DNA from: a virus
DNA: 37,068 nt
Direction: 5' to 3' (one strand)
Virus record (IMG/VR): IMGVR_UViG_3300026184_000107
Location: 1 to 37,068 of that record
Shown: in pieces, positions 15,424 to 18,334 of the stretch
How positions within the stretch are numbered: the stretch's first letter is position 1
Layout of the letters: each line of letters starts with the position of its first letter
Made by a program: the position numbers and the translations under genes
Notes under the pieces: generated by a model
Database searches by the model: none
Seen by the model: the letters and a program-made list of their open reading frames with translations, nothing else
Told to the model about the DNA's origin: nothing

Positions 15424-16701
15424 TTACTCCTCCGTTTCCAGGGCAGCCACCGCCTCGGCGAAGCTGCACTCGTGTTTGCTCGCGTACGCCTTCGCCTTGC
15501 GGTGAAGCGCGGCACGCTCCGGGTCGACCTGCAGGCCGGGCTCGTGGGTGAACGAGGCGGCCGCGCGTGCGGCGTGACCGTCGCCTTCGGCGCCCGCGCG
15601 CTCGCTGAAGTCCACGCGCGAGGGCAGCGAGCCCAGGAGATCGCGCAGGATCTCCGCCGAGGGCTTCTTGACGGTGCCGTCGCCCTCGGCAAACTCGACC
15701 TGGGCGTCCTCGCCGAACGAGGCCAGGAGCTCGGTGAGCGGGGCCTGTTCGCGCGGGAGCACCTTGCCCGCCTTGGCGAGCCCCTCCACGAACTCGACGG
15801 CGTCACGCTTGCGCGCCTCGGCCGCCTTCTTCTGCGCCTCGCGCTCGCGGGCCGTGATCGCCTCGTCACGCTCGGAGAACTCGGCCTCCTTCTCCGCGAC
15901 GGCCTTCTCACGCGCGGCGATCTCCGCCTCGCGCGCCTTGATCTGCTCTTCGGTCTGCACGGTGGTGCTCTCCTCGGAAAAGGAAATGGAATGCGCCTTG
16001 GCCCAGTCGCGGGCGCTCTGCGGCAACGCGCCGGTCCAGCCGTGGCGCCTGGCGATGTCGAGGATCCGGCGGCGCACGGCCTCGGGATCTTCGGCGTGGC
16101 CGGCGAGATCCCAGGCGTCCTTCACGTCCGCCGGGCCCTTGATGGGGAAACTCTTGTGCGGGCCCGCGTAGTCCGGGTCCGCGAATTCGGGTGCGCGCAC
16201 GAGCCGGCGGAGCGCCGTCGTGAGAAGTGAGAGCAGACCGGGCTCGTCCTCGCCGAACTCGACCTCGAGCACGCCTTCCTCGTCGGCGGCGAACTCGGCC
16301 GCCTTGAGGCCCTTCACGGCCGGCGGGTGCGCGCCCAGGAATCCCACGTGGCGCACGTAGTAGGCATCGGCGCCTGGGCCTTCCTGGATCGGATGGCTGC
16401 GGTGGCCCGGCGGGTAGAAGCTCGCGCTCACCTTCTTGAAGCGGCCCGCCTGGACCATCTCGGCGAAGTCGGTGTCGACCTGGTCGGGGACGGCCGAGAG
16501 GCCGTCGGTGCCGTATTCAAGCGAGCGCACCCAGCCGTAGGCGGGCGCGTCGGTCGAGGGATGGCCGACGACGATCGGCGCCTCGTGCTTCGCCGGGTCG
16601 TAGGCCGCGGCCGAGGCCCTCAGTTGGGCCTCGGTGAACTCGATCGTCTCGCCCTGGCGGGATCGGTGACGCCCGGGGCGGAAGATGTGAATGCGCTTCA
16701 T
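15424..16701 (-). CDS. Prohead protease with C-terminal scaffold (Mu gpI/Z-like)
   Basis: A 425-residue protease/scaffold. The N-terminal ~150 residues match Mu gpI-type prohead proteases: MKRIHIFRPGRH, APIVVGHPSTDAPAYGWV, and VSASFYPPGH with candidate Ser residues. A middle segment (DVKDAWDLAGHAEDPEAVRR, then ILDIARRHGWTGALPQSARD) resembles the DUF6582 element found in phage proteases. Residues about 245-300 form a charged coiled coil typical of scaffolding proteins. It is the first gene of the second late operon, and a putative late promoter ends 30 bases upstream. An internal start could make the scaffold alone, as in Mu. Confidence 0.85.
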   Translation of the reverse strand: MKRIHIFRPGRHRSRQGETIEFTEAQLRASAAAYDPAKHEAPIVVGHPSTDAPAYGWVRSLEYGTDGLSAVPDQVDTDFAEMVQAGRFKKVSASFYPPGHRSHPIQEGPGADAYYVRHVGFLGAHPPAVKGLKAAEFAADEEGVLEVEFGEDEPGLLSLLTTALRRLVRAPEFADPDYAGPHKSFPIKGPADVKDAWDLAGHAEDPEAVRRRILDIARRHGWTGALPQSARDWAKAHSISFSEESTTVQTEEQIKAREAEIAAREKAVAEKEAEFSERDEAITAREREAQKKAAEARKRDAVEFVEGLAKAGKVLPREQAPLTELLASFGEDAQVEFAEGDGTVKKPSAEILRDLLGSLPSRVDFSERAGAEGDGHAARAAASFTHEPGLQVDPERAALHRKAKAYASKHECSFAEAVAALETEE

Positions 16702-16731: not shown

Positions 16732-16753
16732 GGCATAAGTTGGAAGGCGCTTC
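16732..16753 (-). promoter_or_regulatory. Putative late promoter element 2 (head/tail operon)
   Basis: The plus-strand bases GGCATAAGTTGGAAGGCGCT plus TC form a near copy of 25335-25356, with 18 of 22 identical positions. On the minus strand it reads as the inverted repeat GAAG-4-CTTC followed by ACTTATGCC. It ends 30 bases before the first start codon of the operon, the same distance as its partner. The inverted repeat fits binding of a dimeric Mor/C-type activator near -35; TTATGC could be the -10 box. Confidence 0.6.
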
Positions 16754-16834
16754 CCACGCCGGCGCCAGGACGAATGCGGCGCGAGCGGCGTCGAGAATAC
16801 CCCTCCGGCGCGGGTGGCGCAATCGCCGCGACGG

Positions 16835-16843
16835 TGCTAGAGT
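16835..16843 (+). promoter_or_regulatory. Candidate extended -10 promoter of the plus-strand island
   Basis: TGCTAGAGT combines a TGn extension with TAGAGT (4 of 6 matches). No good -35 is visible at 17 bases, as allowed for extended -10 promoters. Transcription would begin near 16850 and run through a possible short stem with T6 (16883-16908) and the structured RNA to the two plus-strand genes. This is the only plausible sigma70-type start seen in the gap 16702-17037. Confidence 0.4.
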
Positions 16844-16921
16844 TGGATTGCGGGGCTGACTACCCCTTGACCATAGGCGGATCCGCACCCGACAGAGGCG
16901 GCTTTTTTATGCGAGTTCCAA

Positions 16922-17001
16922 GGCCGGGTGGCGACGGGAATACAAGACCCTTCGGGGGAATACCGTCGGCCGCACCTATGGGCGGTAGTCACCACCCGGC
17001 C
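16922..17001 (+). ncRNA. Structured RNA leader of the plus-strand island
   Basis: Arms of 14 bases, GGCCGGGTGGCGAC (16922-16935) and GTCACCACCCGGCC (16988-17001), pair with one mismatch. They enclose a CCC-TTCG-GGG hairpin with a UUCG tetraloop (around 16948-16957) and a second TACCG/CGGTA stem (16961-16987). Together they look like a three-way junction. The UUCG loop is stable only as a plus-strand RNA. It ends 36 bases before the first gene of the island and 25 bases before its AGGAG, so a cis-acting leader or small RNA is likely. I do not recognise a known riboswitch class. Confidence 0.5.
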
Positions 17002-17037
17002 GCCCAAACCAACTGACTTGAACCATAGGAGATTCGA

Positions 17038-17247
17038 ATGGCCATTCCCACCGATCGCCCGATCGACCGGGCCGAGTCCGCGGCCAGCGAGCTGCGGGCC
17101 GTAGCTGACCTCATCACCTCGGCCGATGACTTGCACTGCGTGCGAGCCGACGAGCTCGCCATGCTGATGAGCAACGTCGCACGGCGCCTGGACGCCGCAC
17201 TCGATGATCTGGCGAGCGTTCCGCGCCGCCGACTGCATTCCGTTTGA
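17038..17247 (+). CDS. Small helical hypothetical protein of the plus-strand island
   Basis: A 69-residue protein with ATG at 17038 and AGGAGA 7 bases upstream. It is nearly all helix (AESAASELRAVADLITSADD, then RADELAMLMSNVARRLDAAL) with a basic C-terminus. It resembles the many small helical prophage proteins that lack a known function. It is followed 12 bases later by the second island gene, so the two form an operon encoded against the head genes. It could be a small regulator or host-takeover protein; this is inference. Confidence 0.6.
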   Translation: MAIPTDRPIDRAESAASELRAVADLITSADDLHCVRADELAMLMSNVARRLDAALDDLASVPRRRLHSV

Positions 17248-17259
17248 GGAGGGACTTCC

Positions 17260-17742
17260 GTGGAACTTACGCTCAACGACGAATACGCCATCGCCTCCGA
17301 TAGGCGCCAATACATCGTTCGACGCCGCGAAGGTACTGACTGGAAGAACCGCTGCTACTGGCGTTCTCCTGCACTCCTGCGAGCATGGCTTGCGGATTCC
17401 GGCAGGGGCGCTGGATTGCCGCAAAGCGACCTTGAGGGTCTCGACCGGTTCGTCGAGGTATGGGACGCCGTACGCAAACAGGCGAAGAACGCGGCGCCAG
17501 GTCACGCAGTCGACGCGGACATGTTCGCGGTGGACTGGGACGGGCGCCAATGGGTGCTGACGCAGACCGCCCACTCGGATCGGTTCTACTTCGCCGAGCG
17601 CGGAGACGCGCTCCTCGCGGCCTGGGACAATATCGCCAGGGCGGCCAAGGGGAGGTCAGCCGAAGAATTGGAGGCCGAACTTCGGCGTCTCGGCAACGAA
17701 TTCCTGAAGGCCATCGGAAAGGAGGCCCTAGAACCCGTTTAA
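17260..17742 (+). CDS. Hypothetical phage protein (DUF5405-like repeats)
   Basis: A 160-residue protein starting at GTG 17260, after GGAGGGAC. Two halves share a pattern: ELTLNDEYAIASDRRQYIVR...CYWRSPALLRAWLAD and MFAVDWDGRQWVLTQTAH...FYFAERGDALLAAW. Each looks like the small DUF5405-type fold seen in P2-like and other phages (strand, strand, then a helix over a residue-selection step). The function of that family is unknown. It is the last gene before a strong plus-strand terminator, so the island is an independent transcription unit. Confidence 0.65.
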   Translation: MELTLNDEYAIASDRRQYIVRRREGTDWKNRCYWRSPALLRAWLADSGRGAGLPQSDLEGLDRFVEVWDAVRKQAKNAAPGHAVDADMFAVDWDGRQWVLTQTAHSDRFYFAERGDALLAAWDNIARAAKGRSAEELEAELRRLGNEFLKAIGKEALEPV

Positions 17743-17801
17743 ACCCCATTTAAATTTTGAGATCGCGGTTCCCACGGGCCCACGCCCCCGCGACACCACT
17801 C

Positions 17802-17818
17802 AGGCGCTCTGAGCGCCT
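17802..17818 (+). repeat. Perfect inverted repeat before the terminator of the island
   Basis: AGGCGCTC (17802-17809) and GAGCGCCT (17811-17818) form an 8-bp palindromic stem. The single-base centre makes it more likely a protein-binding palindrome than an RNA hairpin. It lies 5 bases before the terminator stem. Its function is not known. Confidence 0.3.
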
Positions 17819-17822
17819 CTCA

Positions 17823-17851
17823 GGGCCCCGTCCGCGACGGGGCCCTTTTTT
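17823..17851 (+). terminator. Rho-independent terminator of the plus-strand island
   Basis: A perfect 10-bp stem (GGGCCCCGTC / GACGGGGCCC, loop CGC) is followed by six T on the plus strand. It closes the island at 17038-17742, 80 bases after its last gene. There is no T-run in the opposite direction, so it does not obviously stop the first late operon, which ends at 17876. Confidence 0.9.
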
Positions 17852-17875
17852 GACCACTGGACACTTTTGCACCAG

Positions 17876-18334
17876 TCACGGCGCGGCCTCCGAGAGCCAT
17901 GCCTGGAAGATCTCGAGGATCTCCTGCTTGTCGGCTGCCGTGACGCCGAGGAAAGGCCGCGCCGGCAGGTTGATCTCGGGGCGCCCGAACTGCTGCGCGG
18001 CCGCATAGACGCGGTTCGACCCCCACTCGGCACTGCGGCTGTCGGCCTGCCAAGCGAGCTGGTCCGCCAGGTGCCCGTGGAGGACCAGGACGAGGTCGGC
18101 GCCGCGCGATGCGCGCTTGCGCTTGCTCGCCAGGTAGCGCTCGGTGAGCGGCGCCCAGCTCGCGATCGGGTCGTCCGCGTTCTGGCTCTCGATGCGCTCG
18201 CGCGTGGAGGCGACGCCGTACTGCGCGAGCTCGGCCATCGCCGGTTGCGGATCCTCGAGCTTGTCCAGGAGCTGGCGCAGCATCGCGAGCACCGCCTCGT
18301 CCTGGTACTCGATCTCGATCCGCGCGCCGCTCAC
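17876..18334 (-). CDS. Virion morphogenesis / tail completion protein (Mu gpG-like)
   Basis: A 152-residue protein of the Mu gpG (phage virion morphogenesis) family. Evidence is the VLAMLRQLLDKLEDPQPAMAE helix, WAPLTERYLASKRKRAS, and the C-terminal FGRPEINLPARPFLGVTAAD, where AARPFLG-like wording is diagnostic. Family members act in head-tail joining. It starts at GTG (18334), overlapping the gp30-like stop. It is the last gene of the first late operon and lies just before the plus-strand terminator. Confidence 0.86.
   Translation of the reverse strand: MSGARIEIEYQDEAVLAMLRQLLDKLEDPQPAMAELAQYGVASTRERIESQNADDPIASWAPLTERYLASKRKRASRGADLVLVLHGHLADQLAWQADSRSAEWGSNRVYAAAQQFGRPEINLPARPFLGVTAADKQEILEIFQAWLSEAAP

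Follow-up and report, generated by a model that had tools for sequence, protein, structure and literature searches.

The stretch of DNA analyzed here, referred to below as the window, comprises positions 1 to 37,068 (37,068 nucleotides) of the IMG/VR virus record IMGVR_UViG_3300026184_000107 and represents a Mu-like phage, encoding transposase A and B, a Gam-like protein, a late activator, a portal, F, G, the I protease and tail genes. A 1.1-kb island, which consists of an RNA and two genes (P0001 and P0002) on the plus strand and is closed by a strong terminator, interrupts this gene order between the I-like protease and the G-like gene:

15424-16701, minus strand: Mu I-like protease, flanking the island
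16757-17855: accessory (moron) island
17038-17247, plus strand: P0001, a 69-aa helical protein
17260-17742, plus strand: P0002, a 160-aa protein
17822-17846, plus strand: strong intrinsic terminator that closes the island operon, with an 11-bp stem and a T run
17876-18334, minus strand: Mu G-like gene, flanking the island

A close relative (L244) aligns with the window up to position 16756 and again from 17856, with flanks that are about 81-86% identical, and has approximately 320 nt in place of 16757-17855; as the island is missing from this relative, it is cargo. In a more distant Mu-like phage (L245:11489-13219), the same gap holds DUF5131-like and three-Cys-motif-like genes (named by eye), and the G/I gap looks like a cargo hotspot.

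P0001 has a coding-like GC content by codon position and is homologous to the open reading frame that follows sRNA-Xcc1 in L182 (41% identity over 58 aa, pairwise E 5e-9). Its match to XAC0095 is sub-threshold (E 0.021); judged from its sequence, it is possibly a distant XAC0095-like protein. For P0002, the search for homologues returned a single near-identical viral contig, none in phages and one chance-level match in plasmids; its match to phrog_154 is weak (E 0.0017), and the AlphaFold model, made without an alignment, was unusable (pLDDT 50). P0002 (17260-17742) runs through strands and then a helix twice, in ..IASDRRQYIVRR..LLRAWL.. and ..VDWDGRQWVLTQ..LLAAWD.., and thus looks like an internal duplication.

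The first-pass annotation had placed a structured RNA on the plus strand in a gene-free gap ahead of two small genes, and had assigned it to no class that it recognized. Both the gap, which is protein-free and followed by two small plus-strand open reading frames, and the structure are real: the fold of 16922-17001 (+) reaches -45.2 kcal/mol, compared with -31.2 ± 3.1 kcal/mol for dinucleotide shuffles (z -4.57, 0/200). The class, however, is a known one. An Rfam covariance search identified 16922-17001 as RF02221 (sRNA-Xcc1), with 69.5 bits against a gathering score of 53 and a full-length alignment to the model (1-87), and the element is therefore a member of this family, with the following parts:

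16922-17001, plus strand: sRNA-Xcc1 (RF02221), by fold and covariance match; the Rfam match extends to 17009
16922-16931/16992-17001, plus strand: stem P1, 10 contiguous pairs
16933-16937/16963-16967, plus strand: stem P2, 5 bp, enclosing AAUACAA and the CCC-UUCG-GGG hairpin
16948-16957, plus strand: UUCG hairpin, CCC-UUCG-GGG
16970-16973/16982-16985, plus strand: stem P3, 4 bp, with the loop ACCUAUGG

The RF02221 core, AAUACAA-N-ACCC-N4-GGGGAAU, is present at 16939-16961, within the three stems. The outer stem had previously been given as 14 bp; it has 10 contiguous pairs, to which the single-sequence fold adds three more past a bulge. Although the UUCG hairpin, also noted earlier, is a conserved structure of RF02221, it is not part of the single-sequence minimum: with the RF02221 pairs forced, the fold reaches -43.8 as against -45.2 kcal/mol, a gap of 1.4 kcal/mol, and the two folds differ inside P1.

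The diagnostic feature of the locus, which was absent from the first-pass annotation, is a pair of flanking target sites, both on the strand of the RNA, that are complementary to two of its segments:

16857-16864, plus strand: a1, UGACUACC, 8-nt complement of sRNA positions 16984-16991
16871-16877, plus strand: b1, CCAUAGG, 7-nt complement of the b′ loop
16975-16981, plus strand: b′, CCUAUGG, part of the P3 loop and complementary to both b1 and b2
16986-16991, plus strand: a′, UAGUCA, joining P3 to P1 and complementary to both a1 and a2
17014-17018, plus strand: a2, UGACU, complement of a′
17023-17029, plus strand: b2, CCAUAGG, overlapping the Shine-Dalgarno sequence AGGAG (17027-17031) of P0001

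Thus, a1b1 (16857-16877) lies at the presumed transcript start, and a2b2 (17014-17029) lies over the P0001 Shine-Dalgarno sequence. The composite pattern TGACTN{2,12}CCATAGG has only three matches on both strands of the 37 kb (a1b1, a2b2 and, reversed, the RNA itself), compared with 0.00 in shuffles, and the window has no further CCATAGG site beyond the three in these matches. Exact composite patterns were adopted in place of a whole-window duplex-energy scan with the a′b′ segment, which was uninformative because the genome is GC-rich and 6% of the scanned windows reach the energy of a2b2. Since the b′ loop matches both the transcript start and the ribosome-binding site of P0001, the element is most likely an antisense off-switch. 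An alphaproteobacterial copy (L172:3884-4319) shares its b′ loop (CCUAUGG) and its flanking CCATAGG sites with the window but differs in the a′ strand.

The leader upstream of the RNA contains three further candidate signals:

16815-16843, plus strand: candidate promoter TGGCGC-17 nt-TAGAGT with a TGC extension, consensus-weak (6/12 matches)
16852-16866, plus strand: hairpin GGGG-CUGACUA-CCCC, which can present a1 in its loop, in an IsrK- or c4-a1b1-like layout
16883-16908, plus strand: CCGC...GCGG-CTTTTTT, a weak terminator-like hairpin that follows a1b1 and precedes the sRNA

A stricter consensus scan did not report the promoter candidate, and a terminator scan made no call at 16883-16908; in an unconstrained fold, the leader hairpin stretch was no more stable than shuffles. 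The promoter candidate ends 14 nt 5′ of a1, within the peak at -20 to -11 found in relatives (110 loci among the matches listed).

To assess these relatives, we searched with the core motif, which returned at least 120 viral and at least 118 genome stretches and yielded 126 non-redundant loci; because the loci were selected by this motif, invariance of the core is not evidence. Among the matches listed, an upstream complement is present in 112 of the 126 loci (28% expected by chance) and a downstream complement in 92 (15% expected by chance). Complements of seven bases cluster at -140 to -80 and +80 to +100 from the core, about 23-fold above background (126 loci among the matches listed), with a peak of up to 133 observed and 5.3 expected per bin. 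A first complement test, which used broad windows and showed a weak contrast between own and other flanks, was superseded by position-resolved and Shine-Dalgarno-restricted tests. Among the matches listed, the P3 region forms duplexes with the upstream and downstream flanks of its own locus at energies that beat all 20000 partner permutations. Furthermore, a b′ complement run of at least six bases occurs in 43.5% of the loci in their own Shine-Dalgarno window but in only 4.7% after swapping, and 0 of 20000 permutations gave as strong a contrast (124 loci among the matches listed), even though the automatic hairpin call used in this test was wrong in some loci, including that of the window. Near-identical scaffolds among the matches listed bear differing loops, each of which fits its own downstream site.

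P1, tested by direct pairing against swapped controls, is present in 126 of 126 relatives among the matches listed, and most of its positions show several kinds of standard base pair, while P3 shows many compensatory changes and P2 pairs modestly more often than swapped controls (44% versus 25%) in the same set. RNAalifold shows no P1 because the MAFFT alignment misplaces it.

Sigma-70-like sites peak 11-20 nt 5′ of a1 (61, versus mostly 1-9 in other bins, among the matches listed), and the transcript therefore most likely starts at a1b1, crosses the RNA and enters the gene. A TTTTT run separates a1b1 from the RNA in 81 of 126 loci among the matches listed, as against 26 and 6 in control intervals. 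Since RCC, as found in RNase P substrates, lies 3′ of P1 in 81 of 125 loci among the matches listed (background 3.8%), processing by RNase P is plausible for the window RNA, in which GCCC follows P1.

The genes that usually follow RF02221 RNAs, among the matches listed, are phage antirepressors: 98 proteins in first or second downstream position include, with overlaps, 24 Bro-N, 13 KilA-N, 9 Rha, 9 AntA, 7 P22_AR_N and 5 ORF6N matches, and 10 downstream proteins among the matches listed match XAC0095. In three loci (L059, L063 and L133), a small open reading frame recurs between the RNA and the antirepressor; phage P1 has the same gene order, c4-icd-ant. In another (L109:4014-7052), sRNA-Xcc1 with matching flanks precedes a small open reading frame and an 882-aa primase/Toprim-like protein, an arrangement reminiscent of P4 CI controlling the P4 replication operon. 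A set of similar viral contigs (L002, L005, L013, L019, L021, L041 and others) forms a separate subgroup with the core GGGATGGCCCG-AATACAA, in which the flank layout differs and an antirepressor-like gene was not seen directly downstream.

A purely cis-acting, riboswitch-like leader, in which the RNA stays in the mRNA and a ligand or condition switches translation through a pseudoknot between the P3 loop and the Shine-Dalgarno sequence, could make use of the short distance of about 40 nt between these partners and of the structured core, whose AAUACAA and GGGGAAU strands are invariant in loci collected by that core. However, such a leader does not explain a1b1, which is equally conserved (112/126, among the matches listed), the family member of Xcc has had its ends mapped and is a discrete RNA of 88 nt (PMC2996969), and the downstream genes among the matches listed are antirepressors rather than members of one metabolic pathway; we regard it as improbable.

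Nine Xanthomonadaceae chromosomal copies of sRNA-Xcc1 (L128, L136, L149, L161, L171, L176, L192, L205 and L226) lie mostly 5′ of XAC0095 family genes. The Xanthomonadaceae group, among the matches listed, retains the upstream site but mostly lacks the Shine-Dalgarno match, so that the full two-target plan is not universal in RF02221; these nine copies are possibly domesticated and trans-acting. This group, together with the control by HrpG/HrpX published in Xcc (as cited in PMC12189769 and PMC12444791), would suit a trans-acting virulence or host-regulation sRNA with host mRNA targets, as has been proposed in Xanthomonas and Xylella. For the window RNA, we consider this highly improbable, as its target sites are both in cis and specific, and the loops are rewritten in step with the local Shine-Dalgarno sequence across phages (among the matches listed).

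The first-pass annotation had also suggested a toxin-antitoxin RNA, but neither a tandem RNA repeat array nor a ToxN-like gene, as expected of type III systems, was found in the island, and family searches with P0001 and P0002 yielded no toxin family and no antirepressor match. That P0001 or P0002 is a toxin silenced by the RNA is thus hard to credit: antisense control of a small open reading frame resembles type I toxin-antitoxin logic, but repression of P0001 by Shine-Dalgarno pairing is already part of the proposal below, and the PADLOC ZorA score is a weak match of the coiled-coil type.

Instead, we consider the element likely to be a phage antisense control RNA of the c4/CI type, which guards two small cargo genes of a Mu-like phage. 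The earlier suggestions of a regulatory leader and of a phage sRNA were both essentially right, as a member of an sRNA family forms part of the leader ahead of the island genes and shows complementarity to their operon. Transcription would start just 5′ of a1b1 and proceed through the sRNA into P0001 and P0002. The stem-closed RNA would then be excised from the leader, with RNase P as the probable enzyme and the foot of P1 as the cut site, by analogy with c4. Its b′ and a′ segments could pair with a2b2, in cis or, when supplied by another copy, in trans, masking the Shine-Dalgarno sequence of P0001 and shutting off translation; a1b1, at the start of the nascent transcript, would be their second target, and pairing there would likely favor termination 5′ of the sRNA. 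Under this proposal, P0001 and P0002 would stay off while the RNA is present, because it blocks a2b2 and favors early termination, and an incoming phage that shares the a/b code would likewise be silenced.

More tentatively, and stopping somewhat short of favoring the idea, we suggest that RF02221 as a whole may be a mobile, re-programmable phage immunity RNA, sequence-independent of C4, which phages place in front of varied operons (those of antirepressors, of a primase-like gene or of late-region cargo), with changes confined to a′/b′ and the sites that match them. In that case, the 'virulence' sRNA of Xanthomonas would be a domesticated copy without its former downstream target, acting in trans and possibly directed at incoming phages.

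In many genomes, RF02221 carries no annotation beyond that of a plant-pathogen sRNA, and current work predicts targets for it in hosts and plants; the present reading gives the family a testable function. It would place the c4/CI logic in a second RNA scaffold and extend it beyond lysogeny switches to the cargo genes of Mu-like phages. A short two-part a/b code would set which phages or operons silence one another, and superinfection groups would become predictable.

Published accounts describe sRNA-Xcc1 from integron cassettes with symE (PMC12444791) and predict targets for Xylella copies (PMC12189769). The window RNA shares the conserved core and three-stem fold of this family, but while published sRNA-Xcc1 is a virulence-linked, integron-encoded, trans-acting sRNA of Xcc under HrpG/HrpX, the window RNA has flanking targets in cis. 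Neither flanking targets nor an antirepressor context of sRNA-Xcc1 was found in the literature searched, which leaves room for an earlier link with c4; the functional reading of RF02221 is likely new.

The c4 RNA, as described in PMC5320573, folds into three stems, undergoes processing by RNase P, occludes ribosome-binding sites with its b′ loop and derives its specificity from a′. The window RNA has three stems in common with C4 of phages P1 and P7, and its tRNA-like foot would suit RNase P; likewise, its a′ and b′ are complementary to flanking a1b1 and a2b2, with b2 on the ribosome-binding site. Control of an antirepressor operon is seen in many RF02221 relatives (among the matches listed) but not in the window, where, unlike for C4, the controlled genes are late-region cargo. 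Furthermore, 16750-17300 contains no covariance match to C4 (RF01695) or c4-2 (RF02944) at E up to 10, and C4 belongs to clan CL00128, whereas RF02221 is reported without a clan. Thus, the RNA would function like c4 but is not filed as C4, because a C4 sequence match is undetectable. The two scaffolds stand side by side, with a common logic, in L027 (2422-3753), where tandem isrK-C4, sRNA-Xcc1 and isrK-C4 units surround an antirepressor-type gene, all on one strand. One of the two Rfam C4 elements of this locus served as a positive control and has a flanking complement pair at -80 and +87; the second has no 7-base flanking complement at that threshold.

The CI RNA of P4 pairs with seqA upstream and seqC downstream, leading to termination, and IsrK is a structural homologue of SeqA (both according to PMC4825925). 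Like P4 CI, the window RNA has a complement on either side of it, upstream and downstream, within its own transcript; pairing of CI causes premature termination, whereas in the window b2 lies on the Shine-Dalgarno sequence and termination is what we infer. Finally, although a covariance search of the leader with isrK (RF01394) gave only 11.7 bits (E 6.5) against a gathering score of 50, the stretch 16852-16908 presents the same order of hairpin, single-stranded target and T-run terminator as the IsrK and c4-a1b1 leaders.
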